Source: Deltaproteobacteria bacterium
GTDB lineage: Bacteria > Desulfobacterota > Syntrophobacteria > Syntrophobacterales > Syntrophobacteraceae
Reading direction: 5' to 3'
Length of the DNA: 64,000 nucleotides
NCBI GenBank assembly: GCA_012517315.1
Contig: JAAYVE010000021.1
Span: forward strand, 1-64,000
Shown here: in pieces, positions 6,927 through 23,003 of the stretch
Numbering within the stretch: the first letter of the stretch is position 1
Layout: each line of letters begins with the position of its first letter
Made by a program: the position numbers and the translations under genes
The notes under the pieces: generated by a model
What the model saw: the letters and a program-made list of their open reading frames with translations, nothing else
The model's database searches: none
Told to the model about the DNA's origin: nothing

Positions 6927-8420
6927 ATGATCCCAGCAAACAAGGTTCAGGCGAAGTTGCGCCTCCGTTTGATGATCGGGCTGCCGGCTTTGCTTGCCCT
7001 GTGCATGCTCATCTCAGGATGGATCATCCACCCCGCTCTCTACGAGTGGTTTTTCGATAGTTCCATCGACATGGAAATTTTCCGCAAGGTGAGCCTTGGA
7101 TCGATGCTCCTCATGATCCTGCTCGCCTTCGTGGGAAACCTGGGAGCGGGGATCCTCATCAGCCGCCACATCAACCGGCTCATCGCCAAGCTGGAAGCGT
7201 CTCTGCGGCTGGAGAATCCGTCTCGACCTTTCATTGAGGCAACGGACGAAATCGACGCCCTGGGAATTGTGGTGGACGAGGTGAGTACGACTCTGAGCCG
7301 CTTCGTCAATGACAACTATATCATTGAAAACCTGCCCGAGGGCTTGGTGACCGTGGACTCGGCCCTACAGATCACGCGCATGAACAGCAAGGGGGCGGAA
7401 CTCCTGGGACTCCAGGGGATCCCGGCTGTGGGGAGCAGCCTGACGGAGTTCATTCCCCGCACTACGGTGAACAAGGCTTTCTTTGACATGGTGGAGGCGG
7501 GGGCGAAGTCGGGGCGCATTCCCCTAAGGCTGGTGCCGCTCCTTCTGGGGGATGGCCGTATCCATGAGTACTGGGTGGAGATTCATCCCTTGAAGAGCTG
7601 GAATGCAAAGGGGAGCAAAGATTGCGTCTCCATCAGCATCAAGGATCCGGCGAGCATTCTTGCGGTCAAGAACCAGATCCAGAAAATCGAGCGTCTTGCA
7701 GCGATCGGAGGAGTGGCCTCCAGCATGGCCCATGAGGTGAGGAATCCATTGGGGGCCATACGCACCTTCACGGAGTTGCTTCAGGAGGATCTTCCGCAGG
7801 ACGATGCGAAGAAGCTGCGGTACACAGGCGAGATTCTGCACCAGATCGACCGGCTGAACCAGCTTATCGAAGACATTCTTGCTTTTTCGAGAGATTCCAT
7901 CAAGACTGTGAAGGAAGTCGACGTTGAAGAGTTGCTCTCCAGTGTGGTCCAACTCGTGAAAGCCAAGTTTTCCGATTCCCTTGTGGTCGTCGAGGAGGCC
8001 TACCAGCCGAGTCTTCCCCGGTTGCGCGGCGATCCTGAGAAGCTTTCCCAGGCCTTTGTGAACATGCTCATCAACGCGTTCGAAGCCTGTGGGGACGGCG
8101 GGTCGGTGAAAGTGTCCGCAGAAGGCGAGCCTCGGGTAAACGAGGCCAGCTGCAGTGTTTGCATTCGCATCGAGGACTCAGGAAAAGGGATTCCCCAGGA
8201 AATCATGGGAAAGGTCCTGGATCCGTTCTTTACGACGAAACCCAATGGAACGGGGCTGGGGCTTGCTATCTCCCATAATATTTTGACCGCTCACGGAGGG
8301 ACTGTTCAAGTGACGAGTGAGGTGGGTAAAGGAACCGCTTTCCAGATCGTCCTACCTTGTGGAAAGCAGTCTCCGCAGGGGTTGGTGCATGCAGATCGGA
8401 GTGATACTGTCCATGCCTGA
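6927..8420 (+). CDS. Membrane-bound PAS sensor histidine kinase (NtrB/PilS-like)
   Basis: The 497-residue product has two membrane segments (about 15-34 and 56-78) around a 20-residue periplasmic loop, a HAMP-like linker, a PAS domain (about 128-240, beginning NYIIENLPEGLVTVDSALQI), a HisKA domain with phospho-acceptor His269 in MAHEVRNPLGAI, and a HATPase domain with NMLINAFEA, DSGKGI and GTGLGLAI. This is the plan of kinases paired with sigma-54 activators. Its end overlaps the response-regulator start by 8 bp, so the two are surely co-transcribed. The ATG at 6927 was chosen because TM1 follows at once. The short periplasmic loop suggests it senses a membrane or internal signal rather than a large ligand. 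Confidence 0.9.
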   Translation: MIPANKVQAKLRLRLMIGLPALLALCMLISGWIIHPALYEWFFDSSIDMEIFRKVSLGSMLLMILLAFVGNLGAGILISRHINRLIAKLEASLRLENPSRPFIEATDEIDALGIVVDEVSTTLSRFVNDNYIIENLPEGLVTVDSALQITRMNSKGAELLGLQGIPAVGSSLTEFIPRTTVNKAFFDMVEAGAKSGRIPLRLVPLLLGDGRIHEYWVEIHPLKSWNAKGSKDCVSISIKDPASILAVKNQIQKIERLAAIGGVASSMAHEVRNPLGAIRTFTELLQEDLPQDDAKKLRYTGEILHQIDRLNQLIEDILAFSRDSIKTVKEVDVEELLSSVVQLVKAKFSDSLVVVEEAYQPSLPRLRGDPEKLSQAFVNMLINAFEACGDGGSVKVSAEGEPRVNEASCSVCIRIEDSGKGIPQEIMGKVLDPFFTTKPNGTGLGLAISHNILTAHGGTVQVTSEVGKGTAFQIVLPCGKQSPQGLVHADRSDTVHA

Positions 8421-9807
8421 GCGAATCCTGGTTGTAGATGACGATCCGGGTATGCAGGCCGCTCTGAGGGAAGTCCTGGAGAGGAGGGGGTACGAAGGGG
8501 ATTCCGCCTCTTCCGCAGAGGAGGCCATTCAGAAGGTGAGTCGCAACTCCTATGACCTGATTCTTCTGGACGTGAAGCTGCCGGGAATCTCCGGTATCGA
8601 GGCTATTCCTCTCATCAAGGAGCACGGGGACCAGGGGGACATCATCATGATGACCGCCCACGGTTCAAAAGAAATGGCCCTGGAAGCCATAGGCAAGGGA
8701 GCTTACGATTTCTTCACCAAGCCGTTCAACCTCCAGGAGATGGACATCGTCATCAAGAGAGCCATCGAGCGGCGAAGGCTCAAAAACGAAGTGGAGCATC
8801 TCAAGAACAGGCTCCAGAAGGATGGCGGAATCATCGAGAGAATGGTGGGCGCTAGCCAGTGCATGAAACACGTAAAGGCTTTGATCCAAAGGATCGCCCC
8901 CCTGGAGACGACGGTGCTCATCACGGGGGAGAGCGGTACAGGCAAGGAGTTGGTGGCCGATCTCATCCATTCCCTGAGTCCCAGGGCTTCCGGGCCCTTT
9001 GTGAAGATCAACTGTGCCTCTATTCCCGAAAACCTCCTGGAGAGTGAGCTTTGCGGACATGAAAAAGGGGCGTTTACGGGCGCGGTGTCGGCGAGGGAGG
9101 GTAAATTTGAACTAGCCCACAAGGGGACTATCCTCATGGATGAAATCGGGGAGATGCCTTACGCCCTACAGGCCAAGCTCCTGCGCCTCGTGGAGCAGAA
9201 GCAGTTCGAACACCTGGGAGGGAACAAGCCTATTTCCGTGGACGTTCGGATCATCGCCGCCACCAACCAGGACCTCGCCGCCCTCATCAAGGAAAAGCGT
9301 TTCAGGGAGGATCTCTTCTATCGCCTCAACGTGGGGAGCATTCATGTTCCTCCCCTGAGAGAGCGCAAGGACGATCTGCCGCTCCTCACCGAACATTTCC
9401 TCAAGGAAATCAATGTGAAACTGGGTACCTCCGTCACCGGCACATCCAGAGACGCCATGGAGTTTCTCATGGGATACGATTGGCCGGGAAACGTGCGGGA
9501 ACTGGCCAACGTGCTTGAGCGGGCCGTCATCCTGTGCGGTGGACAAACCCTCTCCGGTGGAGAACTGAACATGGCGTTTCAAAGATCCCCCCGCATCGGC
9601 GACAAACTGAACGGGCAGGCTGTCATTTCTTTGGGCGAGACGTTGGACGAGATCGAAAAAACCCTCATCATCACGGCATTGAGAAAACACCGGGGACGCC
9701 AGTGTGACGCGGCCCGGTCCTTGGGCCTGAACCCCAAAAACCTCTGGAAGAAGATCAGGAAGCACCATATTGAGAAGGTCGTGACCGTGGAGGAACCAGA
9801 GGATTGA
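8413..9807 (+). CDS. NtrC-family sigma-54-dependent response regulator
   Basis: The 464-residue product is a receiver domain (acidic pocket DDD at 9-11, phospho-acceptor Asp53 in LLDVKLPG), then a sigma-54 AAA+ domain with Walker A GESGTGKE at 172-179, the sigma-54-contacting GAFTGA loop and the DEIGEMP strand, then a Fis-type helix-turn-helix (DAARSLGLNPKNLWKKIRKH). All key residues are present, so it should be an active enhancer-binding protein. It is the partner of the overlapping kinase. The next genes are the flp pilin and the rest of the Tad locus, and a sigma-54-like promoter with two matching upstream dyads lies just downstream of this gene, making pilus expression the likely target. 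Confidence 0.93.
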   Translation: MPERILVVDDDPGMQAALREVLERRGYEGDSASSAEEAIQKVSRNSYDLILLDVKLPGISGIEAIPLIKEHGDQGDIIMMTAHGSKEMALEAIGKGAYDFFTKPFNLQEMDIVIKRAIERRRLKNEVEHLKNRLQKDGGIIERMVGASQCMKHVKALIQRIAPLETTVLITGESGTGKELVADLIHSLSPRASGPFVKINCASIPENLLESELCGHEKGAFTGAVSAREGKFELAHKGTILMDEIGEMPYALQAKLLRLVEQKQFEHLGGNKPISVDVRIIAATNQDLAALIKEKRFREDLFYRLNVGSIHVPPLRERKDDLPLLTEHFLKEINVKLGTSVTGTSRDAMEFLMGYDWPGNVRELANVLERAVILCGGQTLSGGELNMAFQRSPRIGDKLNGQAVISLGETLDEIEKTLIITALRKHRGRQCDAARSLGLNPKNLWKKIRKHHIEKVVTVEEPED

Positions 9808-9850
9808 GGCCTGCCGGTGTGCTCGTGATTACCCTATCCGTTGAGTCGAA

Positions 9851-9867
9851 TTCTACTAAAAGTAGAA
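9851..9867. promoter_or_regulatory. Candidate upstream activator site 1 (TTCTACT-AAA-AGTAGAA)
   Basis: This is a perfect 7-bp inverted repeat with a 3-bp centre, 44 bp after the NtrC-type gene and about 233 bp (centre to centre) upstream of the sigma-54-like promoter. Fis-type domains of NtrC regulators bind dyads of this size. A near copy follows 96 bp downstream, about nine helical turns. Confidence 0.55.
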
Positions 9868-9946
9868 ATTCCTTGAATCCCTCACTGGCTACCCGGGCTT
9901 GTAACCTCCGTTTGCTCAAGAGGTCGCGATGAGCCGACCGTATGCG

Positions 9947-9963
9947 ATCTACCAAAAGTAGAA
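9947..9963. promoter_or_regulatory. Candidate upstream activator site 2 (ATCTACC-AAA-AGTAGAA)
   Basis: It matches site 1 at 15 of 17 positions, with the same AAA centre and intact right arm. Its centre lies about 137 bp upstream of the sigma-54-like promoter, within the usual range for enhancer sites. Recurrence of the same dyad argues against chance. Confidence 0.55.
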
Positions 9964-10083
9964 AACAGATCGGACCGTTCCCGGGGTGAATTGGCAAGTT
10001 CGTGAGAGCCGATACTGCTCTTGGCACGGATCGGGGTCTCCAGTTCCCCGCATCATGACGCAAGTTCTGCTTTTTTTGACAAA

Positions 10084-10099
10084 TGGCACATTCCTTTCA
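10084..10099 (+). promoter_or_regulatory. Candidate sigma-54 (-24/-12) promoter for flp
   Basis: TGGCAC, five bases, then TTTCA fits the consensus TGGCAC-N5-TTGCW with a single mismatch (T for G in the -12 GC). It lies 226 bp upstream of the flp start, implying a leader of roughly 215 bases. The two upstream dyads and the adjacent NtrC-family gene support it. Confidence 0.55.
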
Positions 10100-10325
10100 T
10101 GTAATTGCTTTCGCAGTTGTTCGTGCCCGGATGCAGGGCGCTCGGTGCGCCCATTGCGGATGGATCACGGCGGTTGAGGCAGAGGTGAAACCCGTGTTAA
10201 GAATCGGCTGATGTGTTGTTGAGATGCGAGCCGTCATGGGGAGGGGGGTGGTGACCCTCGGCGTATGGGAGATTGAAGGGAGAATGACCAAGGACCATGG
10301 GTCGAATCCCGGAGAGGAGAATTCG

Positions 10326-10514
10326 ATGCTTGAGATGATCAGAAGGTTTCTGAAAGAAGACGACGGAGCGAGCATGGCCGAGTATGCCATTCTGCTCGCC
10401 GTGATCACCGGCGCCCTGGTGACCATCCTCGGGCTTTACACTGAGTCCATGAGCAACATTTTCAACTTCATCAAACAAAAACTCGACGAAGCGCACAATG
10501 CAGCGTCCTCCTAG
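10326..10514 (+). CDS. flp: Flp-type pilin (Tad pilus major subunit)
   Basis: The 62-residue product has the hallmark class IVb prepilin signature: a short charged leader (MLEMIRRFLKEDDG), cleavage after Gly, then ASMAEYAILLAVITGALV with Glu at +5 and Tyr at +6 of the mature protein, and a single hydrophobic helix. After cleavage by the prepilin peptidase encoded 1.25 kb downstream, it would polymerise into thin adhesive Flp pili. The start is set by a GGAGAGGAGA ribosome site; an in-frame extension to 10224 lacks sense. It is the first gene after the sigma-54-like promoter and is followed by a hairpin, which would allow more pilin than assembly-gene transcript. Confidence 0.93.
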   Translation: MLEMIRRFLKEDDGASMAEYAILLAVITGALVTILGLYTESMSNIFNFIKQKLDEAHNAASS

Positions 10515-10546
10515 GATAGGGTCACCGGCGCATTCCGGTCTCAAGG

Positions 10547-10579
10547 CCCTTTGATTACATCCCGGAGTGCATCAAAGGG
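10547..10579 (+). terminator. Hairpin after flp (possible attenuator)
   Basis: CCCTTTGAT at 10547-10555 pairs perfectly with ATCAAAGGG at 10571-10579, with a 15-base loop, 32 bases after the flp stop. No run of T follows, so it is more likely an RNA-stabilising or partial-termination hairpin than a strong intrinsic terminator. Confidence 0.45.
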
Positions 10580-11080
10580 GTTTCTGGATGCGAGGCGCAA
10601 GTGAAGAGCGGGGGGCGCGGGAAAACCGCGTGGGGGTGATTTGATCGGGTTTTTTCCCAGACAGACTTTATCCAGGATACGTCAAGCTGGTCTTCTGTTC
10701 TTCCGGTGAAGTGGAAGTACTTTTCGAGACGGGGATGAGTGCACTGTTGCCTGTGGGAATCGCCCCTCCTGTTTCGTCGCCTGTGCCCGGTATGCGAAAA
10801 GAGGAGCGCTTACAATCGGGGGATGGTCAGGCCGGTTGAGCTTTCACCTCCGGTGGCTTCCCGAGCGCCGGCATTCACACCCTTCCGGTGAGTGTTCATT
10901 TTCAATGATGTCTCCTTAGATGCTCATGGCATGGGTGGGTTTTTCGCAACAACCCAGAGTTGCCAAGGGTGCTATTCCCGTTGCCAAGACCGGCTGACGC
11001 TTTTCCTCCAGCTTTCCGATCTTTTTATGGTTCATTTTCGGACCATTTTTAGCTCCCGATTCCGGTGAAAGAACGAAACC

Positions 11081-11191
11081 ATGCCCTTGAAGCCTTTTGT
11101 ACTGGGATTTTCTCTAGGAGTGCTCCTAGTCTTTTTGTGTGTTCCGGTCTCTGGGAGGATCCAGCGGATTTGCAGTCGCCGGGAGAAATGA
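11081..11191 (+). CDS. Possible 36-residue membrane peptide
   Basis: An ATG frame encodes a Lys-containing N-terminus followed by a hydrophobic run (FVLGFSLGVLLVFLCVPV) and a basic tail (RIQRICSRREK), the shape of a single-pass micropeptide. The ribosome site is weak (GGTGAAAG, 8-9 bases upstream). A competing 98-codon frame overlaps it but is not protein-like. Only the hydrophobic pattern supports this call. Confidence 0.25.
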   Translation: MPLKPFVLGFSLGVLLVFLCVPVSGRIQRICSRREK

Positions 11192-11443
11192 GTGCCGGAC
11201 GCACCCGTCATCGAGTGCCTCCCATTTCGACATCCGTATTGGAGCGCCTTTCTAATGGGACGTTCCAGATCACATCTTTGAATTCCCAAAATGCCCCCCC
11301 CATTCCTCCCTCAGTTCTCTTGCCCGGGATAAATTTTGACTCGCCCGAGACACTGAGATAATCTGTCACTACAGGACTGATCTTTTCAAGGACTGCTCTC
11401 TGCAACCAGGATTTGGCTCTATCCGATGGAATGGATACAAGAA

Positions 11444-11638
11444 ATGCTGGTATTCTGGTTCATTGTGGGTTTGGTGTCCGGCGTTGTCATGGGCATTCTG
11501 GTGGTGGCTTTGTGCGCCATGGCATCAGACCGCCATCGCCCCAGACCGAATCATGTTCCTATCACCGGTGTCCCTGAGAGTCCGGGGAGTGCTCAGGATG
11601 ATGATGAAGATGGAAACAGGAAAGGTTTTTACCACTAA
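11444..11638 (+). CDS. Small single-pass membrane protein
   Basis: The 64-residue product starts with a strong hydrophobic segment (VFWFIVGLVSGVVMGILVV) and continues with a short acidic, Pro-rich tail (ASDRHRPRPN, DDDEDGNRKG). It resembles the small DUF3789-like class of one-helix proteins, but that match is from memory of shape only. An alternative ATG at 11426 adds six residues; neither start has a strong ribosome site. It lies within the Tad locus just before the prepilin peptidase gene, so a role in pilus biogenesis is possible. Confidence 0.4.
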   Translation: MLVFWFIVGLVSGVVMGILVVALCAMASDRHRPRPNHVPITGVPESPGSAQDDDEDGNRKGFYH

Positions 11639-11765
11639 AGGGGTGTATTCACCTCCTCATCGGGGTGTGGGAAGTTTTCCAGGCGGGGGGAGTTGCGTGC
11701 CGGTCAGCAGGCGGCAAGCAATGGGTTTTGTTGTCTTATTGTCTGATCCGTGAGGGAGCCACTTC

Positions 11766-12368
11766 ATGAGTTCCTTCGCTCCCTTCATCCTCGCCGTATT
11801 CCTAGCGGTCTGCGCAGTTTTTGATCTCTTTTACCGAAGAATTCCCAACTGGCTCACTTACCCGGCCATGACGGCGGCTTTGATCTTCCGGGGGATCAAT
11901 GGAGGGGTGGACGAACTGCTGCAGGGGCTTAGCGGGTTGGCGGTTGGCATGGCTTTGTTGATGCCTGTTTACCTGGTGAAAGGCATGGGGGCTGGAGATG
12001 TGAAGCTCATGGGAGTGGTGGGCGCCTTCCTCGGCCCGAAGGAGGCGTTTGTCGCTTTTCTCTGGACCGGGGTCACAGGAGGCGTCTATGCGTTGATTTT
12101 ACTTGCATTGCATCCGCATCAACTTGTAATATTTCTGAAAAAATGCCTACAAAAGTTTGTATTTATCGGAAAAGTCTTGTTCTACGGGGTGAGCGGGGCG
12201 CATGCTCTTTCACCGTTTGATGAGGAACCGGCGCATCAGGGCGAGGGTCTCAAAGTATGCTATGGGGTGGCCATCGCGGTGGGAACCATGGGCTACTTGC
12301 TGTGCAAGGGGGGAGGGCACTCCAGCTGGCCTCCTTTCGTATGTGCCTTGAGTAGCAGGTTTTTTTAG
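11766..12368 (+). CDS. cpaA: Prepilin peptidase, TadV/CpaA type (A24 family)
   Basis: The 200-residue polytopic membrane protein carries both catalytic aspartates of A24 peptidases: Asp20 in FDLFYRRIPNWL and Asp78 in GMGAGDVKLM. It lacks the N-terminal methyltransferase domain of PilD, as is usual for TadV/CpaA. It should cut the leader from Flp and the TadE/TadG-type pseudopilins at the inner membrane. The C-terminal part (GLKVCYGVAIAVGTMGYLL) is the normal last helix; the final 25 residues (KGGGHSSWPPF...) extend slightly past family length. It is followed after 13 bp by cpaB, and the stretch near 12120-12180 between helices is noticeably richer in A+T. Confidence 0.9.
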   Translation: MSSFAPFILAVFLAVCAVFDLFYRRIPNWLTYPAMTAALIFRGINGGVDELLQGLSGLAVGMALLMPVYLVKGMGAGDVKLMGVVGAFLGPKEAFVAFLWTGVTGGVYALILLALHPHQLVIFLKKCLQKFVFIGKVLFYGVSGAHALSPFDEEPAHQGEGLKVCYGVAIAVGTMGYLLCKGGGHSSWPPFVCALSSRFF

Positions 12369-12381
12369 GAGAAGGGGATCC

Positions 12382-13233
12382 ATGGGGAAGTTCAAGGCGG
12401 TTATCGCTTTTGTTTTGGCGGTGGTGGTTGCGTTGGTGGCCACCTCCATCATTTACCGGTGGGTCCAGACCAAGGCAGCTGCCCCCGTGCAAACGGCGTC
12501 CAAGGAGGAGAAGGGCGTGCAGATGGCACTGGCCGCCCGTGATCTCTCCAAGGGGACGAAAATCGGTGCCGGGGACATCAAGATGGTTTCCCTACCGGAA
12601 CAGGCCATTCCCGCAGGCCATTTTAAGGACGCTGCGGCCCTCCAGGGGCGTGTGCTCATTGCTCAGGTGAGGGAAAACGAACCCATCACGGAATCGAAGT
12701 TAGCCCCGGTGAGTGTGACCACGGGGGGTGTTTCCGCCGTGGTTTCGCCCGGAAAGCGGGCCATCGCCGTTGCCGGAGACAAGGTCATCGGCCTTGCCGG
12801 TTTCATTCAGCCGGGGAACCGAGTGGACGTGCTCGTGACCCTGAAGAGCCCCACAAGCGAAAGCCATGTCACAAAGGTTGTGCTGGAAAACATCCTGGTC
12901 CTGGCCACGGGAACGCAAACACTGAACCTGTTTGATGGAAAACCCGGCCCCGTGGATGTGTTCACTCTGGAGGTGACCCCCGAGGAGGCCGAGAAACTTT
13001 CCCTCGCCGCGAGCCAGGGGAAGCTGCATTTTGCCCTGCGAAACGTCACTGACGATTCGGAGGTGACCACTATGGGAACAAGTGTTTCCGAGATCCTGGA
13101 CGGCTACAAGCCCAGGATGCAACTGGTGAAAGAACCGGTGGTGAAACCGCCTCCAGAGCCGAAGGAGCCGGCAAAGCGGGCGGTCGAGATCCAGACCATC
13201 AGGGGGACCAGTGTGACTTCCCAGTCTTTCTGA
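12382..13233 (+). CDS. cpaB: Flp pilus assembly protein CpaB/RcpC
   Basis: The 283-residue product begins with a membrane anchor (VIAFVLAVVVALVATSII, about 6-23), then an SAF domain (VQMALAARDLSKGTKIGAGDIKMVSLP, about 48-75) and the RcpC/CpaB domain (RAIAVAGDKVIGLAGFIQPGNRVDVLVTL). It is a periplasmic protein that works with the outer-membrane secretin CpaC/RcpA, encoded next. The ribosome site is AGGAGAAGGGGAT. The Pro-rich C-terminal linker (KPPPEPKEPAKR) precedes a short tail of unknown role. Family assignment is firm. Confidence 0.92.
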   Translation: MGKFKAVIAFVLAVVVALVATSIIYRWVQTKAAAPVQTASKEEKGVQMALAARDLSKGTKIGAGDIKMVSLPEQAIPAGHFKDAAALQGRVLIAQVRENEPITESKLAPVSVTTGGVSAVVSPGKRAIAVAGDKVIGLAGFIQPGNRVDVLVTLKSPTSESHVTKVVLENILVLATGTQTLNLFDGKPGPVDVFTLEVTPEEAEKLSLAASQGKLHFALRNVTDDSEVTTMGTSVSEILDGYKPRMQLVKEPVVKPPPEPKEPAKRAVEIQTIRGTSVTSQSF

Positions 13234-13430
13234 GGGGTGTCGAGAAGGTTGGCTGGTCCGATGATCTTCAGCAAGTCGCGCCATGGCTTGGAGATCAGCG
13301 AGGAGAGGGATGGCGCTTTTCGCTGGAGGCAGAGAAACTGAATAGGGGGAGTCCGGTCCCGCGGACACTGAGAAGGGGCTGCAGGGGTTTTATGGGACGC
13401 GGTGGAACCGGAGGAGGAAAGGGGGATCTC

Positions 13431-14876
13431 GTGTGTGAGCGGATGTTTCCCGAAAAAAGGGTGGCGGTCCTTTTTTGCCCGTGGCTCCTGGTGGTTCTCG
13501 CGTTTGCGCAGTGCCTGGCTGCGGACGGCGGGCCAAAGGTTGTGCCCGGCAGGGCCCCACAACGGATCAATGTGGAAATCGGAAAATCGGTCATCGTGCA
13601 AACGTCTCGGCCCGTCTCTAGAGTGTCCGTCGCCGAGCCGGCCGTAGCCGATTACATTCTGCTTTCGCCCAACCAAATCTATCTCACCGGCAAGGGCCCC
13701 GGGGTCACGAACATGACCTTATGGGGACCGGACGACAAGATCTCAGCCATTTACGATATCGAATCCCTGCCCGATGTTTCCCGGATTTCGGCGAAACTGC
13801 GCCAGGTGCTACCCGGGGAAAAAGACATCGGCGTTCATGCGGCCCACGATTCCATCACCCTTACGGGGAAGGTGGGAAGCACCAGCAGTGCGGCCCATGC
13901 CCTGGCGGTGGCCGAGGCTTTCAAGACAAGGCCGGAGCAGAAGATCATCAACCTCATCGAGGTGGGCGGGGTGCAACAGGTGATGCTGGAGGTTCGGGTG
14001 GCAGAGATGTCGCGGGCCCTCGGCAGGCGCTTGGGGATCAATTTTGTTGCTGGCAACAACGGCAGCATCGGGACGAGTCTCATCGGGAACCTCGGCAGCA
14101 TCAATGAATTCATCGGCAATGGAACGGCAGGCAGCCTGGACCTCAACTTTTCCCAGGCCGTGAATGCTCTTTTTCACATTGCCGGGGGGGAGTTCACCTT
14201 CACCCAGTTCATGGATGCCCTGAAAGAGGAAGGGCTGGTGAAGATTCTCGCCGAGCCGAACCTCATCACCTTGAGTGGCCAGGAGGCGACCTTTCTGGCG
14301 GGAGGGGAGTTTCCCGTCCCGGTTCCCCAGGGACTGGGGACGGTGGCCATCGAGTACAAGAAATTCGGTGTGGCCCTCTCCTTCACCCCCACGGTGCTGA
14401 GCGACCGGAAGATCAACGTGAAGGTCCAGCCTGAAGTGTCCGATTTGGATTTCACGACGGCCATCAGTATTTCCGGGGTGGCGGTACCCGGTATCACAAC
14501 CCGGCAGGTGACCACGATGATCGAACTGGCCGATGGGCAAAGCTTTGCCATAGCGGGACTCCTGAGGGACTCGGTGAGGGAAACGGTCTCCAAGTTCCCC
14601 TTTCTGGGTGAGATCCCGGTGCTGGGAGCCCTCTTCAGAAGCACCTCGTATCAGAGAAACGAGACGGAACTCATCGTCATCGTGACACCGCACCTGGTGA
14701 AGCCTCTGGACATGGCCAAACAGAAGCTCCCCACGGACAGCTATGTGGACCCGACCGATGCCGAATTCTACCTCCTGGGTCTCCTGAAGGGACGGAAAAC
14801 GCACGCCCCCCCCTCACCCTTTGGGCTCAAAGGGACCATGGAAGGAGAATTCGGGCACGCGGTGCCCAAATACTGA
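13431..14876 (+). CDS. cpaC: Outer-membrane secretin CpaC/RcpA
   Basis: The product has a signal peptide (VAVLFCPWLLVVLAFAQCLA), an N-terminal pilus-secretin domain (INVEIGKSVIVQTSRPVSRVSVAEPAVADY), a BON-like domain (IGVHAAHDSITLTGKVGSTSSAAHAL) and a full secretin domain ending in the conserved VRETVSKFPFLGEIPVLGALF and ETELIVIVTPHLVKP. It forms the outer-membrane pore through which Flp pili emerge. I prefer the GTG at 13431, preceded by AAAGGGGG; ATGs at 13392 and 13443 are alternatives in the same frame. It follows cpaB, the usual Tad order, after a 197-bp gap in which no gene was seen. Confidence 0.92.
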   Translation: MCERMFPEKRVAVLFCPWLLVVLAFAQCLAADGGPKVVPGRAPQRINVEIGKSVIVQTSRPVSRVSVAEPAVADYILLSPNQIYLTGKGPGVTNMTLWGPDDKISAIYDIESLPDVSRISAKLRQVLPGEKDIGVHAAHDSITLTGKVGSTSSAAHALAVAEAFKTRPEQKIINLIEVGGVQQVMLEVRVAEMSRALGRRLGINFVAGNNGSIGTSLIGNLGSINEFIGNGTAGSLDLNFSQAVNALFHIAGGEFTFTQFMDALKEEGLVKILAEPNLITLSGQEATFLAGGEFPVPVPQGLGTVAIEYKKFGVALSFTPTVLSDRKINVKVQPEVSDLDFTTAISISGVAVPGITTRQVTTMIELADGQSFAIAGLLRDSVRETVSKFPFLGEIPVLGALFRSTSYQRNETELIVIVTPHLVKPLDMAKQKLPTDSYVDPTDAEFYLLGLLKGRKTHAPPSPFGLKGTMEGEFGHAVPKY

Positions 14877-15498: not shown

Positions 15499-16015
15499 CA
15501 AGGACATTGCCCATAGATGCCTGTTGGCCGACATTGGGATTCCTGGATCCTACGGGGAACTGTTACGAGGCTTCATGGGTTGAAGCAATAGAGGGTGTCA
15601 CCCATTGCCCGTTCGTGATGTTTGCCGGTGAAGTGGTGACAGACATCCGGCGGCACACAGGTTGCCCGGGGGCTGTGGCGTGAGAAATCATCCTGAACGA
15701 ATCGGGAATCTGCACCAGCGGGGTTTCTGGAAGGCTGCCCTGCTAGAAGATGCCTCGCTTTTACCCGCCCGTTGATCATTCCAACTTTTCTATCCGGTTA
15801 TCTGCGGGTATACTCCCACAGTAAATTGAATGCGATCGATTCTCCTTGGCGCGGGGGGACTCTCAAGGCGGCGATCCCTGTTGTCTGTCCGCTGACCTAA
15901 TTTGTCCGCTATTGATCATGACGGTCTCGTTTTCGGTTCCTCTGGAGCGGCGGTGATGGGGGGTGACAGCGCTGGGGATGGATGCCGGGAAAGCTTGGGT
16001 GAAGATGGTGAAGTG
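15499..16015. other. Intergenic region inside the Tad locus
   Basis: About 517 bp with no credible gene. The tadE frame stays open leftwards to 15902, but its sequence there is not protein-like. No terminator hairpin with a T-run and no sigma-54 consensus was found. An internal promoter for the tadE-tadD block may lie here, since this is the largest gap inside the assembly genes. Confidence 0.45.
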
Positions 16016-16507
16016 ATGGATCGGATTTCTGAGCGGAGCGTAAAGCGCGGAAGCTGCTTGGCGGGCGAGCGTGGCAGTGCCATGCTGGAGTTTGCCATCA
16101 TCGTTCCGTCGTTGATCCTTTTCTTGTTTTTCATCGTGGAGTTCGCGCTCATCATGTACGACAAGGCGGTCATCACCAATGCGAGCAGGGAAGGGGCGCG
16201 CCTTGCAAGCCTGTATTACCCTGACGCTGGAAACCCCGGCGCCCGGAGACCCGACGGGGAAATCCAGTCGGCGGTGATGGATTATGCGTCCAAATACCTC
16301 ATTACTTTTGGAAACGATACCCTGGACCTCTCCGACATCCAGGTGGTTCGGGAGCAGGACGCCTCCGGAATTTGGGTGGGAAAGGTGATAGTGACCTACC
16401 ACTATGATTTTATGATTCTTCCCAACTTGCTGCAAAACATCACGGGACCGTTCATCCTCTCAGCTGCGACGATCATGCGGGATGAGAATCAGATTCCTCC
16501 GTCCTGA
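16016..16507 (+). CDS. tadE: TadE-like pseudopilin
   Basis: The 163-residue product has a prepilin-like signature: charged leader ending ERG, then SAMLEFAIIVPSLILFLFFIVEFALIMYDKA, with Glu at +5 after the Gly. This is the TadE domain, including the following ITNASREGAR that marks the family. It would be processed by the locus prepilin peptidase and act as a minor pseudopilin in Flp assembly. ATG at 16016 was chosen because longer forms back to 15902 add non-conserved sequence. The next gene encodes a partner TadG-like protein. Confidence 0.88.
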   Translation: MDRISERSVKRGSCLAGERGSAMLEFAIIVPSLILFLFFIVEFALIMYDKAVITNASREGARLASLYYPDAGNPGARRPDGEIQSAVMDYASKYLITFGNDTLDLSDIQVVREQDASGIWVGKVIVTYHYDFMILPNLLQNITGPFILSAATIMRDENQIPPS

Positions 16508-16611: not shown

Positions 16612-18042
16612 ATGAACCATCGGTGTGGAGGATTCGGGAAGACCTTGAGAGAAGGTCACTTTTGCAGGAGACTCACGGACGAACAGGGTGCGATGATCGG
16701 GGTCCTCGGCATCCTGGTGATCGTGGTCCTCGGTTTTGTCGCCCTCGGCGTGGACGTGGGGCATCTCTATCTCGTGAGAAACGAACTCCAGAACGCGGCC
16801 GATGCGGGGGCCCTTGCGGGGGCGAACGTGCTCTACAGCGAGAACGGAACCCAGGTGAATCCCAATGCCAACCAAGCGGCGTTTGACGCCGCCGTCTCCA
16901 ACCGGGTGACGGTGTTCCCCGCCGGGTGGAGTCCGGTGCAGGTGGATTGGCCGAGCGGCACCAACGACGGGGGTGTTCAGCGGGGGCATTATGATCCTTC
17001 GACGGGCGTCTTCACGTCCAATGCCTCCCTTGAACCTGTGGATCTTCAGAATGGAGCCGAATCGAGTTTGAACGCGGACACGACTTTCGTCAATGCGGTG
17101 AGGGTCATTACGCGAACGTCCACTCGTTCCCTCTTCGCAGGGCTGCTGGGGGTCTCCACATCCAACCTCTCCGCCGAGGCCGTGGCCTACCTGGGTTTCG
17201 CCAGGGAGCTGAATCCCAGGGATGTGGACCAGCCCATCGCCGTCTGCCAGGACTGGCTGTATCCTGCCGATTCATCCCGCAACCCTTGCAACAACTACCC
17301 CAACAGCAGTTACTGGATGGTGCCTGACGGTCCTCATCAGGTTGTGCGATGGATCACTCTCGACCAAGGCCCAACCAGCGATATTTCTTGTGGGCCCATC
17401 CTTGACGGAAATCCTCAACAGGTCATGTTTACCGAAGCGATGCCGACTGTCCCCATAAGCAGTGACCCAACTGCGTTCAATTTCTTTCGTGACCAGAATT
17501 GGCGGCATATTTCACGATGTGCAATGAATGATTCAGACAACGATGGTATCCGGGAAACACCTATTGACTCGAATAACAACACAATCCCAGACAGGCCATG
17601 GATATTCACGTTGCCCGTTATCGATTGTTCAGGCAACCCGTACTCCGTCCCCCCTTTGGGAAGGGTTGTGGTTGAGATGATTTGGATGACTCCAGGTGGG
17701 TCTTATCCAGAACCAGACAATGTGTGTGATGATACGCCGCGCAGGATGTACGACAGGGTGTCCGGAACCGACTGGACGTGCCCCTGGTATCAACCAGGCT
17801 GTGATGATCCGATACAGAGATGGAGTATGTTCGCACAGCGCTTTGAATTTCGCGATTCCACCGGGCCGACTCTTGACTGCACTCAGCCATCTCTAAGAAA
17901 TGTCATGTTTCTCAAGCCTGTGTGCGAGGATGACGATGGCGATGGAACCTATAAGCCCGTCCGCCCCAGGACAGGAAGGACAGGCAGTACCGTCTACGGC
18001 TTGAGGGGGCAACTGGCCAAATACCCCGTGCTCGTCAAATGA
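16612..18042 (+). CDS. tadG: TadG-like protein with Tad domain and Cys-rich C-terminus
   Basis: The 476-residue product begins with a basic leader and a hydrophobic segment (MIGVLGILVIVVLGFVALGVDVGHLYLVRNELQNAADAGALAGA, about 28-70), the signature of the putative Tad-like pilus-assembly domain. The rest is predicted outside the membrane. About ten cysteines lie in the second half (for example AVCQDW, NPCNNY, DISCGP, VIDCSG, TCPWYQPGCDD), along with an Asp-rich DSDNDGIRETPID that could bind calcium. No von Willebrand A domain with MIDAS residues is evident, unlike longer TadG proteins. The start at 16612 lacks a good ribosome site; an ATG at 16693 would begin at MIGVLG. The segment 17,440-17,760 is richer in A+T than its neighbours. 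Confidence 0.78.
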   Translation: MNHRCGGFGKTLREGHFCRRLTDEQGAMIGVLGILVIVVLGFVALGVDVGHLYLVRNELQNAADAGALAGANVLYSENGTQVNPNANQAAFDAAVSNRVTVFPAGWSPVQVDWPSGTNDGGVQRGHYDPSTGVFTSNASLEPVDLQNGAESSLNADTTFVNAVRVITRTSTRSLFAGLLGVSTSNLSAEAVAYLGFARELNPRDVDQPIAVCQDWLYPADSSRNPCNNYPNSSYWMVPDGPHQVVRWITLDQGPTSDISCGPILDGNPQQVMFTEAMPTVPISSDPTAFNFFRDQNWRHISRCAMNDSDNDGIRETPIDSNNNTIPDRPWIFTLPVIDCSGNPYSVPPLGRVVVEMIWMTPGGSYPEPDNVCDDTPRRMYDRVSGTDWTCPWYQPGCDDPIQRWSMFAQRFEFRDSTGPTLDCTQPSLRNVMFLKPVCEDDDGDGTYKPVRPRTGRTGSTVYGLRGQLAKYPVLVK

Positions 18043-18069: not shown

Positions 18070-19263
18070 TTGCCAATCAATCCGATCCCCGTTCGACTGG
18101 AACTGAAAACCGACGAGGCCAGAAAGGCCCTAGAGAAAATCCTCCGTGCCCACAGGGACTTTCAGATCCGCAGTTCCGGTGATCCCAAGAGCGCCGAGCT
18201 TTTCATCCTGGAGATCGGGAACCGGCCTGAAACGGATTTTGCCCTGCTACAGCAGATTCTTGCCGCCAATTACGGGGGCGAGGTTTTCATCATCTCCTCG
18301 AGTTCCGACCCCTCCCTTCTCGTACAGGCCCTGAGGTCCGGGGCGAGGGAGTTTCTCTCACAACCCATTGAAGAATCGGAGGTGATCCAGGCCCTCGAGC
18401 GCTTCAAAGCCCGGAGGGAGCAACATCGTGAAGGCCGACGCCCTCATAGGAAAGGCAAAATCATCGATCTCATCGGGAGCAAGGGGGGCGTGGGCAACAC
18501 GACCATCGCGGTCAACCTGGCTACGAACTTGGCTGCCGAAGGGAGCAAGGCCAAAGTGGCCCTCATCGACATGAACCTCCTCTTCGGTGAGGTGCCAATT
18601 TTCCTCGATATCGTCCCGATTTACAGCTGGGGGGAGATCGCCAAGAATATCTCCCGCCTGGATTCCACATTTCTCATGAGCGTGCTTCACGAACATTCCT
18701 CGCGGGTTTATGTCCTGCCGTCACCGAGCCAACTGAGCGGTCACTTCGACGCGACGCCCGAGGTCATCGAGCGACTGCTGGATCTCATGAAGCGCGTTTT
18801 CGATTTCATCGTGGTGGACTCGGGGCATATCACGGACGAAATATCGTTGAAGATCCTGGAAATGGCGGACACGGTCCTGGTGACGGCCATCCTTAGTCTT
18901 CCCTGTCTCACCAACGTTTCACGGATCCTCAGACTCTTTTACGACCTGGGCTACCCCCCTGAGGATCTTGTCAAAGTGGTCATCAACCGTTACATGAAAA
19001 ATTCGGAAATTTCGCTGAAGGACGCGGAAAAGAGCATCGACAAGAAGATCTTCTGGTCCATTCCCAATGACTTTCACCTGAGCATGTCCGCCATCAACCA
19101 GGGAAAACCCCTTAGGGAACTGGCAGCCAACTCACCCCTGTCGAAAAGCATTCAGGAACTGGCGGACATGCTTGCGGAGCACAAGCTCGTTCCCGAAAAA
19201 AGCCCCACGTTCATCGGGAGGCTCTTCGGACAGAAGCTGCCGCTCAAGGCATGGAGGCGATAA
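18070..19263 (+). CDS. tadZ: Pilus polar-localisation ATPase-like protein TadZ/CpaE
   Basis: The 397-residue product has an N-terminal receiver-like domain (to about 120, VFIISSSSDPSLLVQALRSGAREFLSQPI) without an obvious phospho-acceptor pocket, then a ParA/MinD-like domain with IDLIGSKGGVGNTTIAVNLA, ALIDMNLLFGEV and VVDSGH. The second Walker A lysine is replaced by Asn (GVGNTT) while the MinD-type first lysine is kept, a known tendency of TadZ proteins, which localise the pilus machine. Start codon is TTG at 18070 with AGGGAAAG upstream. Only 3 bp separate it from tadA, so the two are translated together. Confidence 0.9.
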   Translation: MPINPIPVRLELKTDEARKALEKILRAHRDFQIRSSGDPKSAELFILEIGNRPETDFALLQQILAANYGGEVFIISSSSDPSLLVQALRSGAREFLSQPIEESEVIQALERFKARREQHREGRRPHRKGKIIDLIGSKGGVGNTTIAVNLATNLAAEGSKAKVALIDMNLLFGEVPIFLDIVPIYSWGEIAKNISRLDSTFLMSVLHEHSSRVYVLPSPSQLSGHFDATPEVIERLLDLMKRVFDFIVVDSGHITDEISLKILEMADTVLVTAILSLPCLTNVSRILRLFYDLGYPPEDLVKVVINRYMKNSEISLKDAEKSIDKKIFWSIPNDFHLSMSAINQGKPLRELAANSPLSKSIQELADMLAEHKLVPEKSPTFIGRLFGQKLPLKAWRR

Positions 19264-19266
19264 ACC

Positions 19267-20679
19267 ATGATCAAGATCCTCAACCGATCTCAAAAGGGAA
19301 ACAGCAAGAACTCAAGCCGGAACCCAGCCGCACCTGCGCCCCCCTTGGTCTCGAAAGGCTTGGAGGACCCTGCAGGGTTCCGTGGAAGGCGAAAGGGCGC
19401 CGGCGCAAACGACTACTATGAACTCAAGACCCGGATCCACGACCGACTCATCGATCTCATGGACCTCAGCCTGCTGGATTCCTTCGACGAGACGACGCTC
19501 GCTCCCCAGATCCGAAGACTCGTGGAGCAGATCCTTCGGGACGAGGCAAACCAGGTGCCTCTCAACCTCAACGAACGGGAAATGCTCTTCAGGGAAATCC
19601 AGGACGAGGTCTTCGGACTGGGGCCTCTGGAACCCTTCCTTCAGGATCCAACCGTTTCGGACATCCTGGTGAACAGCTACCACCAGATCTACGTGGAACG
19701 TTTTGGGAAGCTGGAAATGACGGAGGCGCGCTTCAAGGACGAGGTGCACCTGCGCAAGATCATCGACAAGATCGTCTCCGCTGTGGGAAGAAGGATCGAC
19801 GAGTCTTCTCCCATGGTGGACGCAAGACTCGCCGACGGTTCCCGTGTCAACGCCGTCATTCCCCCTCTTGCCCTGGACGGCTCCGTTTTGTCCATTCGCA
19901 GGTTTTCGAGGGATCCCCTGGAACTGGAAGACCTCATCACCCTCAACACCCTCACGGTGGAAATGGCGGAGATGCTCAAGGGAATCGTTAGATCGAAGCT
20001 CAATGTCCTCATTTCCGGCGGGACGGGAAGTGGAAAGACGACGCTCCTCAACGTGCTCTCCCGCTTCATCCCCAACGATGAACGAATCATCACCATCGAA
20101 GACGCCGCGGAACTGCAATTGAAGCAGGACCATTGCGTCCGGCTGGAAACGCGGCCCCCCAACATCGAGGGCCGGGGTGAAGTCACCCAGCGGGACCTGG
20201 TGCGCAACAGCCTCCGCATGCGACCCGACCGCATCATTGTGGGTGAGGTGAGGGGCCAGGAGTCGTTCGACATGCTCCAGGCCATGAACACCGGACACGA
20301 GGGAAGCCTCACCACCATCCACGCCAACTCGCCCAGGGACGCTCTCATGCGCCTGGAGACGATGGTGGCCATGACGGGCATGGAAATCCCAAGCAACTTC
20401 ATGAGGAGATACATCAGCTCGGCCCTTGATGTGGTGATCCAGGTTGCGCGCCTCGCCGACGGAAGCCGGAAGGTCATGAGCATTCAGGAGATCACGGGGA
20501 TGGAAGGGAGCATGGTGACCCTTCAGGAGATTTTCTGCTTTGAGCAGACGGGTGTGGAGGACGACGGCCGAATCCTCGGCCGGTTCAAGTACTGCGGGAT
20601 CAGGCCACGCTTCACGGAAAAATTCCAGATCATGGGAATCAGCATGCCCAAAGGGATTTTCGAGAGCGTCTCCCATTGA
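19267..20679 (+). CDS. tadA: Pilus assembly ATPase TadA/CpaF
   Basis: The 470-residue product is a full-length type II/IV secretion ATPase of the CpaF family: an N-terminal helical region, the conserved [21 protein letters not shown] segment, Walker [11 protein letters not shown], an Asp box ([11 protein letters not shown]), Walker B region ([27 protein letters not shown]) and the His box ([12 protein letters not shown]). It powers Flp pilus extension at the inner membrane together with TadB and TadC, encoded downstream. All catalytic motifs are intact. The long opposite-strand frame over this gene is a shadow. Confidence 0.95.
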
Positions 20680-20888: not shown

Positions 20889-21854
20889 ATGGAAGCCCTT
20901 TTTCCCGTTGCCGTTTTCGTGCTCTGCCTCCTCACCATCGAACTGATCTACTACGGTTTCTCCACCGTGAGGCAGTCGGAAGGTGTGAGGATCAAGAAGC
21001 GTCTCAAAAGTATTCAGGAGGATGCCTCCGGGAGGCATTCCGTCGATATACAAAGAAGACGACGCTTGAGCGACATTCCTTGGCTGGACCGTCTCCTGCG
21101 GTCGGTTCCGGGGATCTGGACCCTGGATGAACTAGTTTTGCAGGCAAACCTCGGCATCCCCGTGGGACTGGCGGTTCTCGTCTCCATACTCCTTTTCTTC
21201 GTGGGGTATACCATCACTTCGAGCTTCCTTAAGATCAGTCTGCTTCCCCTCTTCGTGGGGGTGGTCTTCGCTTCTCTCCCCATCCTTTACATCCGCGTAC
21301 GCAAGCAGCGACGCATGGAGAAATTCCAGAGGCAGCTGCCGGAGGCCCTGGAGATGATCGGGCGGAGTCTCAGGGCCGGTCATGCCTTCTCCAGTGGATT
21401 GAAGATGATCTGCGACGAATTCGACGATCCCATCGGTACCGAATTCCAGAGGACTCTCGACGAAATCAACTTCGGAGTGAGTGTGCCCGATGCCATGAAG
21501 AATCTCGGAAACCGGGTGGACTGCGCGGATTTGAGATTCTTCGTCGTGTCCGTGATCATACAACGGGACACGGGTGGAAACCTCGCAGAAATCGTGGATA
21601 CCATGGGAGGCATCATCCGGGAGAGGTTCAAGCTCAACGGCAAAATCAGGATCCTCACGGCGGAGGGCAGGCTCTCGGCGGTGCTGCTCTGCATGCTGCC
21701 TTTCGTCATGGTTGTTGTGATCCACTTTCTCAATCCCAACCTGATCCGGATCCTCAACGACGATCCCCTGGGGAGAATCCTGTCGGGTATCGCTTTGGGG
21801 CTCATGATCCTGGGGATTGTCATCAGCCGGAAGATGATGCGCATCCGGGTCTGA
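20889..21854 (+). CDS. tadB: Inner-membrane pilus platform protein TadB
   Basis: The 321-residue product has N-terminal membrane segments, a central cytoplasmic GspF-like domain (FQRQLPEALEMIGRSLRAGHAFSSGLKMI, about 139-167) and two C-terminal helices (LSAVLLCMLPFVMVVVIHFL, ILSGIALGLMILGIVIS). This is the TadB pattern; it forms the platform on which TadA acts. It starts at an ATG after AAAGGAACAGG. The 209-bp gap after tadA holds no gene. tadC follows after 183 bp. Confidence 0.92.
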   Translation: MEALFPVAVFVLCLLTIELIYYGFSTVRQSEGVRIKKRLKSIQEDASGRHSVDIQRRRRLSDIPWLDRLLRSVPGIWTLDELVLQANLGIPVGLAVLVSILLFFVGYTITSSFLKISLLPLFVGVVFASLPILYIRVRKQRRMEKFQRQLPEALEMIGRSLRAGHAFSSGLKMICDEFDDPIGTEFQRTLDEINFGVSVPDAMKNLGNRVDCADLRFFVVSVIIQRDTGGNLAEIVDTMGGIIRERFKLNGKIRILTAEGRLSAVLLCMLPFVMVVVIHFLNPNLIRILNDDPLGRILSGIALGLMILGIVISRKMMRIRV

Positions 21855-22037: not shown

Positions 22038-23003
22038 ATGAGCACGTTGACCAGCCCGCCTTTCATCGCCGCTTCCCTGTTTTTCACTTCGCTGCTCCTC
22101 GCCATGGTTGGGATTTACCTTGTCATTCGAGCACGAAAGAACCGTCTCAGGCTGATTCAAAAAATCAAGGCTGCCACGATTCAAGGGGGATCGGATTCTG
22201 CGGGGGTCAATCAGCACCAGTCTTTGCCCGAGGGGTTTGTTGCACGGTTGCTGGCAAGGCTTGGAAAACCCCTCCAGCCGAAGAAAGCCCAGGAATTTCG
22301 AAGCAAGAACCTGGCCTTCCTCAGGGCTGGGATCAGGAGCAGCACCGCACTGCCCATCTTTTGGGGGGCCAAGTGCGTCCTGGCCCTGGCCCTGGCTGCA
22401 GTCTTCCTTTCCCTGGAGACGCTGCTGTTGGCAAACATCACGGGTGCGGGGTCTCTCGTGCTCAGCCTGCTTGTCGCTCTGGGTGGGTATTTTATTCCTG
22501 ACCTGTGGTTGAGATTGCGCACGGCGGAGCGGATGCGCAGAATCCAGAATGGTCTTCCCGACGCCTTGGACCTCATGGTTGTGTGCGTCGAGGCAGGAAT
22601 GAGCCTGGATGCGGCCACCCACCGGGTGGCCGAAGAGATCCGTCTGCAGCACAAGGAACTGAGCGAGGAGCTGGTCCTCACGAATTTGGAGATCCGGGCC
22701 GGGAAGCTGCGGCGGGATGCCCTGAGAAATCTCGCCTTGCGGACGAATCTCGAGGACGTGAGTGCGCTGGCTTCCCTTCTCATCCAGACGGATCACCTGG
22801 GAACCAGCGTGGCCCAGGCGCTCAGGGTTTATTCCGAGTCCTTTCGGACCCAGAGAATGCAAAAGGCGGAGGAGATTGCTGCTAAGCTCCCGGTGAAACT
22901 CATTCTTCCTCTTGGCCTGTGCATCCTGCCGGCCATTTTCATCGTCGTGGTGGGACCGGCGGTCATTCGGCTGATTCGAGCCCTCTCTGCATTTGGGCGT
23001 TAG
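22038..23003 (+). CDS. tadC: Inner-membrane pilus platform protein TadC
   Basis: The 321-residue product mirrors TadB: an N-terminal helix (FIAASLFFTSLLLAMVGIYLVIRA), paired helices near 110-160, a cytoplasmic GspF-like domain with the typical NGLPDALDLMVVCVEAGMSLDAATHRVAEEI, and C-terminal helices (LPLGLCILPAIFIVVVGPAVI). It should pair with TadB as the pilus platform. The start is supported by GGGAGGAAATG upstream. The next gene, tadD, begins within 150 bp. Confidence 0.92.
   Translation: MSTLTSPPFIAASLFFTSLLLAMVGIYLVIRARKNRLRLIQKIKAATIQGGSDSAGVNQHQSLPEGFVARLLARLGKPLQPKKAQEFRSKNLAFLRAGIRSSTALPIFWGAKCVLALALAAVFLSLETLLLANITGAGSLVLSLLVALGGYFIPDLWLRLRTAERMRRIQNGLPDALDLMVVCVEAGMSLDAATHRVAEEIRLQHKELSEELVLTNLEIRAGKLRRDALRNLALRTNLEDVSALASLLIQTDHLGTSVAQALRVYSESFRTQRMQKAEEIAAKLPVKLILPLGLCILPAIFIVVVGPAVIRLIRALSAFGR

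Follow-up and report, generated by a model that had tools for sequence, protein, structure and literature searches.

Between the gene of an NtrC-type activator and flp, the pilin gene of an Flp/Tad locus, the window (the whole 64-kb stretch of DNA analyzed here) contains two similar dyads and a -24/-12 element. This arrangement raises the questions of whether these sites constitute the control region of the pilus, which regulator reads them, and whether the circuit stands alone. We consider it highly probable that the sites control, in a sigma-54-dependent manner, a Flp/Tad pilus operon of the DVU2114 type, and that they are the home member of a larger regulon comprising at least four promoters. 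The features are collected in Table 1.

Table 1. Features of the window and twin-dyad modules of its genome (C, contig).
Feature	Position	Strand	Evidence and remarks
Sensor histidine kinase	6927..8420	+	Pfam HATPase_c 4.5e-24, HisKA 2.8e-16, PAS 6.9e-6
Sigma-54 response regulator (enhancer-binding protein)	8413..9807	+	Response_reg 7.5e-31, Sigma54_activat 8.3e-70, HTH_8 1.9e-11
Fis-type HTH of the activator, LGLNPKNLWKK region	9640..9765	+	HTH_8, residues 409-450; segment aligned in five orthologs
Distal dyad TTCTACTAAAAGTAGAA, core TCTACTAAAAGTAGA	9851-9867	.	Candidate activator site
Proximal dyad ATCTACCAAAAGTAGAA, core TCTACCAAAAGTAGA	9947-9963	.	Candidate activator site
Candidate sigma-54 -24/-12 element TGGCAC-ATTCC-TTTCA, TGGCACATTCCTTTCA	10084-10099	+	Sequence match
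flp, Flp/Tad pilin, 62 aa	10326..10514	+	Flp_Fap E=4.4e-5, Pfam score below gathering; whole-genome search
tadV-type prepilin peptidase	11766..12368	+	Peptidase_A24 9.9e-24
rcpC/cpaB	12382..13233	+	RcpC 4.6e-30, SAF
rcpA/cpaC secretin	13392..14876	+	Secretin 2.9e-47, T2SS-T3SS_pil_N
tadE-like minor pilin	15902..16507	+	TadE 3.8e-15
tadG-like protein	16612..18042	+	Tad 3.9e-13, Tad_C 1.3e-11
tadZ/cpaE-like ATPase	18070..19263	+	AAA_31, CbiA, partial receiver match
tadA ATPase	19267..20679	+	T2SSE 1.7e-67; TadA-family TIGR03819 1.1e-105, below curated cut-off
tadB	20889-21854	+	T2SSF 6.5e-16
tadC	22038-23003	+	T2SSF 2.4e-19
Module A, ahead of flp	window		Dyad spacing 96 bp; dyad 2 to TGG 136 bp; 1 mismatch to TGGCACNNNNNTTGCW
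Module B, ahead of orphan flp2	C34 dyads 126859/126955		Dyad spacing 96 bp; dyad 2 to TGG 139 bp; 1 mismatch to TGGCACNNNNNTTGCW
Module C, ahead of PilZ-domain gene	C49:23945/24040		Dyad spacing 95 bp; dyad 2 to TGG 128 bp; 1 mismatch to TGGCACNNNNNTTGCW
Module D, ahead of RfaH/UpxY-like gene	C49:79866/79960		Dyad spacing 94 bp; dyad 2 to TGG 135 bp; 2 mismatches to TGGCACNNNNNTTGCW

Probable Control Region Upstream of flp

The preliminary description reported twin dyads TTCTACT-AAA-AGTAGAA, repeated after 96 bp with 15 of 17 positions identical, and direct sequence comparison reproduces both values to the base. The coordinates also agree with the reported position of the dyads upstream of TGGCAC-N5-TTTCA, TGGCACATTCCTTTCA being offset by 233 and 137 bp from the two dyad starts. 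The order in which the NtrC-type activator with its kinase is followed by the dyads, the promoter, and flp is confirmed by Pfam domains, with the flp match below the cut-off. A perfect 7-3-7 dyad accompanied by a second copy with at least 15/17 matches was obtained in none of 1500 dinucleotide shuffles of the 518-bp gap between the activator gene and flp. Taken alone, the dyad pattern at three mismatches is weak evidence (four matches in the window vs. 0.76 expected).

The reference for the promoter was the -24/-12 element TGGCAC-N5-TTGCW. Within one mismatch of TGGCACNNNNNTTGCW, the 64-kb window contains TGGCACATTCCTTTCA only, and a plus-strand element of this quality is seen in 0.7% of 2000 shuffles of the 518-bp gap. 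The single mismatch affects the G of the -12 GC doublet (TTTCA vs. TTGCA), the -12 part being imperfect. Transcription of flp is predicted to start near position 10110, leaving a leader of 216 bp.

Kinase, Activator, and Tad Genes

By eye, the N-terminus of the kinase shows hydrophobic stretches; its counterpart in the congener G004 is 66% identical and adjoins the activator of that genome. The activator ATG falls within the 3' end of the kinase gene. Pfam and the alignment assign to the activator a receiver, an AAA+ domain with GAFTGA, and a Fis-type HTH; GAFTGA and the receiver residue D52 are invariant in the alignment of five orthologs. The Fis-type HTH is the probable reader of the dyads. 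The genome encodes roughly 30 sigma-54 activators, and adjacency together with co-conservation points to the neighboring one, rather than another of these, as the protein that would bind the dyads. It also encodes rpoN (Sigma54_DBD 2.8e-64 on contig C54), and the flp promoter is predicted to depend on RpoN.

The gene set of the Flp/Tad locus is complete, comprising flp, tadV, rcpC, rcpA, tadE/G, tadZ, tadA, tadB, and tadC. The stretch of ~1.25 kb between flp and the peptidase gene (10514-11766) holds one small ORF and otherwise no convincing gene, and no Rfam family matches at gathering score in 9700-11800.

Twin-Dyad Modules in the Genome

A genome-wide search for more copies of the dyad, as envisaged in the preliminary description, covered 4,434,934 bases in 61 contigs and yielded 17 sites that differ from TCTACYNNNRGTAGA at one position (11 sites) or at none (six sites). 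The six exact sites all occur in pairs with a spacing of 94-96 bp, while each of the nine unpaired sites carries a mismatch; the latter were counted as background, their loci not being read singly. Base composition predicts 0.72 exact sites vs. the six observed, and among 17 random sites ~1.8e-4 pairs at such spacing are expected vs. four observed. The gapped twin pattern gives three modules on the whole genome and none in the reversed control. Matches with two to three mismatches were examined at C22:52972, C34, and C49.

The region had been presented as a complete circuit. Its parts are indeed present; however, it does not stand alone, being one of four twin modules (A–D). In all four, a -24/-12-like element lies 128-139 bp past the second dyad; its -12 part reads TTGTA in modules B, C, and D and TTTCA in the window.

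Module B precedes flp2, an orphan Flp pilin gene (C34:126492-126614 of this genome, G000; L016:6448-6636, minus) whose product resembles the window Flp. Behind flp2 lie a small membrane-protein-like ORF and then a CheY-like single-domain receiver, and no Tad machinery gene was noticed in the stretch read around it. The small ORF 3' of flp in the window (11426-11638), with one hydrophobic stretch, looks by eye like the ORF behind flp2 (L016:6062-6289, minus); the two are possibly companions of these pilins. The target of module C has a PilZ domain (E 1.1e-9) and a start codon ~455 bp past the promoter element, with polysaccharide-export and chain-length genes farther on. The best model for the target of module D is RfaH (2e-30, below the curated cut-off), and this gene heads a set of XrtA-type exopolysaccharide genes.

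Two of the three Flp-family genes in the genome thus carry the module. The third (G000 C3:23571-23702, L041) has neither a dyad nor a -24/-12 element in the fetched upstream stretch. By eye, it sits behind an apparent AraC-type regulator gene, and the Flp genes of this genome seem to be under differing control.

Conservation Within the Family

Orthologs of the activator (E 1e-130 or better) are found in five of 26 family genomes and Flp matches (at 0.01) in six, with four genomes having both. The only genome with an ortholog and no Flp match is G004, an assembly of ~740 contigs; flp was not found in this fragmented assembly, and the activator contig stops just beyond the second dyad. An exact dyad core follows the activator in all four other ortholog loci, and in three of them it stands ahead of flp; with the window included, the dyad is seen with the orthologous activator at 5/5 family loci. 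The preliminary description had named a lack of the dyads at Tad loci of relatives that share the regulator as evidence against its reading; the dyads are present there, an outcome in favor of that reading. Scanning the genome contigs with the HTH alignment yielded three loci (L045-L047), matching the loci of G004, G003, and G005.

The loci differ in detail. In Desulforhabdus sp. TSK (L038), twin dyads with a spacing of 94 bp are located ~4.8 kb past the activator, together with TGGCACAGTCCTCGCA and flp. Syntrophobacter fumaroxidans (L039) has one dyad, TCTACCAATAGTAGA, then TGGCACGGTTGTTGCT 58 bp on, and then flp; MAG Ch74 (L040, G005) has one dyad ahead of flp and no clear -24/-12 element. 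In both S. fumaroxidans and G005, the dyad upstream of flp is single, not twin, within one mismatch. G004 has three twin modules with a spacing of 96-98 bp; two of them reach the contig end, and the third has a promoter 299 bp from dyad 2, its target gene being cut by the contig end. At zero mismatches, the twin pattern is absent from the six tested family genomes lacking the ortholog, and also from the three other genera in which the ortholog occurs. The exact twin arrangement characterizes the genus, and Desulforhabdus has a near version of it.

An extra exact dyad, TCTACTTTCGGTAGA, is seen in MAG Ch74 (L040:475-489) ~2.3 kb 5' of the activator gene, possibly reflecting autoregulation of the two-component genes.

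Conservation Beyond the Family and Possible Origin of the Activator

In the phylum sample, matches at 1e-135 occur in 12 of 395 genomes. The family of one genome, G077, was taken as Desulfovibrionaceae (an inferred assignment), and orthologs of its activator at 1e-160 are found in 22 of 199 genomes of this presumed family. Nineteen of the 22 loci have TGGCAC-N5-TTGCY within 700 bp, followed by flp (identified by sequence pattern at 18 loci and by neighbor labeling at L091); the strict promoter and flp are missing in the other three. Dyad patterns, picked here after inspecting the loci, are found within one mismatch at 16/19 loci for TCYAC-N5-GTRGA (shuffled mean 0.30, maximum 3) and at 17/19 for WTCYAYNNNNNRTRGAW (shuffled mean 0.62, maximum 3), with at least two copies at eight and ten loci, respectively (shuffled maximum 0). 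Similar to the window, the proximal dyad is often 124-152 bp from the -24 part, while the dyad-to-dyad spacing is variable, about 78-158. The match to the -24/-12 element is better at the orthologous loci than in the window.

In the activator tree of 42 rows, a 100/100 branch sets the 21 flp-labeled rows, together with nine unlabeled ones, apart from the rest; labels come from simple text patterns in the available flank, such that L034 and L087, where flp is visible at the loci, are labeled "other." The tree is rooted at the midpoint for display. The flp-linked clade includes the activators of the window and S. fumaroxidans, DVU2114 itself being outside the tree sample. Among the nearest outer rows, four of five distant-homolog loci adjoin a type IV prepilin-like gene, two of them with TGGCAT-N5-TTGCT; the other activators of the window genome are placed farther out. 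The tree fits descent of the activator from a PilR-like regulator, with the link to Flp gained once in the sample, the direction being unproven.

At one of the distant homologs (L062:5173-5260), CTACAAA/TTTGTAG inverted repeats immediately follow the regulator and precede TGGCATGGAGTTTGCT and a prepilin-like gene. They may represent a variant of the site in the pilA-linked branch.

Dyad Spacing

Across eight modules of three genomes, the dyads are spaced by 94-98 bp. The stretches between them show an ungapped identity of 0.17-0.41 over 28 module pairs, which makes recent duplication of one module a doubtful cause of the constant spacing. Some gapped inter-dyad scores exceed those of mononucleotide shuffles (z up to 4.0), and given these, a faint common descent of some modules is conceivable. 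The constancy of the spacing despite diverged intervening sequence leans toward selection on the distance. Its retention, while most of the sequence in between turned over, may point to two dimers joined in one defined loop, as opposed to sites that act independently. The near-constant spacing of ~95 bp is, however, a local habit, since it is variable in the presumed Desulfovibrionaceae.

Alternative Explanations

Chance as the source of the dyads is ruled out by the shuffles, the genome-wide pairing, and the pair expectation; a generic inverted repeat, e.g., a terminator, is ruled out by the recurrence of the pairs genome-wide ahead of sigma-54-like elements. The dyads might instead serve another dimeric regulator, an activator or a repressor, with the adjacent kinase–activator pair acting elsewhere. 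The many further sigma-54 activators of the genome, and the location of three modules on contigs other than that of the activator, speak for this; however, the dyad accompanies the orthologous activator at every family locus (5/5), a variant dyad lies between the ortholog and flp again in the presumed Desulfovibrionaceae, and twin dyads are absent from six family members without the ortholog, although three ortholog-bearing ones likewise have none at zero mismatches. We therefore regard a different reader as very improbable. It is just as hard to maintain that a sigma-70-type promoter within the 216-bp leader drives most flp transcription, the sigma-54 site being vestigial: the -12 GC doublet of the window is damaged and the leader is long, yet the element holds its position in the other modules of the genome, in Desulfovibrionaceae, in S. 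fumaroxidans, and in Desulforhabdus.

A somewhat different doubt concerns the extent of the regulon, as the window and flp2 modules could be the only true targets and the PilZ and RfaH-like modules chance or decayed copies. The second dyads of the latter two have one mismatch each, the RfaH-like -24/-12 element has two, and ~455 bp separate the PilZ ATG from its promoter; still, their spacings (95/94 bp) and promoter distances (128/135 bp) match those of the flp modules, and chance would yield ~1.8e-4 such pairs per genome, which renders the restriction to two targets unlikely. The reading that we prefer remains that of an activator acting at its home flp promoter and at further promoters of the genome.

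Comparison With Known Systems

The preliminary description considered sigma-54 control to be much less familiar for Flp pili than for type IVa pilA. This does not hold in the present group, as the sigma-54 response regulator DVU2114 of Desulfovibrio vulgaris Hildenborough was mapped in 2011 to the pilin genes DORF39640-DVU2116, likened to cpa/Tad, and to a distant pilus operon, DVU3342-3344/5, according to the available text of that study (Rajeev et al., 2011, PMC3333781). The same text gives binding of DVU2114 at its own pilin targets by DAP-chip, describes in general terms how predicted motifs were tested by EMSA, and reports that S. fumaroxidans, a relative of the organism of the window, has a DVU2114 ortholog and carries the DVU2114 motif ahead of pilin genes; we infer that this motif corresponds to the S. 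fumaroxidans site described above. DVU2114 also appears with GAFTGA and the entry "Pili" in the accessible part of a later survey (Kazakov et al., 2015, PMC4641369). Because DVU2114 is mapped to Tad-type pilins and its motif is reported in S. fumaroxidans, the window is assigned to the same kind. Both systems, as far as the available text describes that of D. vulgaris, combine a GAFTGA sigma-54 response regulator acting on a Tad/cpa-type pilin locus with distant targets, although these differ (DVU3342-3344/5 there; flp2, PilZ, and the RfaH-like gene here). The motif TCTACY-N3-RGTAGA also differs from the WTCYAY-N5-RTRGAW class of the Desulfovibrionaceae loci, the comparison being with these loci.

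In Pectobacterium, similarly, a two-component system adjoins the flp/tad cluster and has a positive effect; unlike in the window, no sigma-54 region is described in the available text, and deletion of the sigma-54 activator VasH left flp/tad expression unchanged (PMC3767616).

As in PilS/PilR control of type IVa pilA, a kinase and a sigma-54 response regulator would activate a pilin gene; in contrast to PilR, the target in the window is an Flp/Tad pilin, the neighboring gene is not of the PilA (GFTLxE) type, and the flp-linked activators are set apart in the tree. The two dimer sites 5' of a -24/-12 promoter also resemble an NtrC-type twin enhancer, whose sites are closer together than the 94-98 bp observed here. 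Hence, the kind of circuit is already known, and what is new is the four-promoter regulon with the near-constant dyad spacing of ~9 turns. Among titles and abstracts of the open-licence PMC literature, no account that links Flp, PilZ, and an RfaH-like antiterminator in one sigma-54 regulon was found, nor, in the open-licence PMC literature, a printed account of flp2, PilZ, and RfaH-like targets.

Proposed Mechanism and Implications

The kinase would phosphorylate the receiver of the neighboring activator, whose dimers would then occupy, via the Fis-type HTH, the two TCTACY-N3-RGTAGA dyads ~9 helical turns apart. From there, the AAA+ ring would loop to RNA polymerase–sigma54 at TGGCAC-N5-TTTCA, ~136 bp downstream, and the GAFTGA loop would open the promoter; such looping and opening are the established mechanism of the enhancer-binding protein family. 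Transcription of flp, and probably of the tad genes behind it, would follow. The kinase–activator–enhancer–promoter–pilin circuit put forward in the preliminary description is supported, with rpoN present in the genome, because the module recurs genome-wide and is conserved where the orthologous activator occurs. Since the same twin-dyad module precedes flp2, PilZ, and the RfaH-like gene, one signal may set pilus and matrix jointly.

A broader reading, for which we see even chances, is that a PilR-derived Flp activator has widened in this genus into a master switch of matrix and attachment, governing through two-dimer enhancers ~9 turns apart the Tad pilus, the second Flp pilin, the PilZ protein, and an RfaH-like antiterminator that would read through the XrtA-type exopolysaccharide locus.

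The motif, as TCTACY-N3-RGTAGA or WTCYAY-N5-RTRGAW, can be used for regulon calling in genomes, and the near-constant spacing of the dyads allows a clean test of whether enhancer pairs depend on a fixed distance. The predicted wiring would connect the pilus directly to exopolysaccharide and to a PilZ protein. More generally, the results indicate that sigma-54 control of Flp/Tad pili is no oddity but is recurrent, and probably old, in these sulfate-reducing and syntrophic bacteria.
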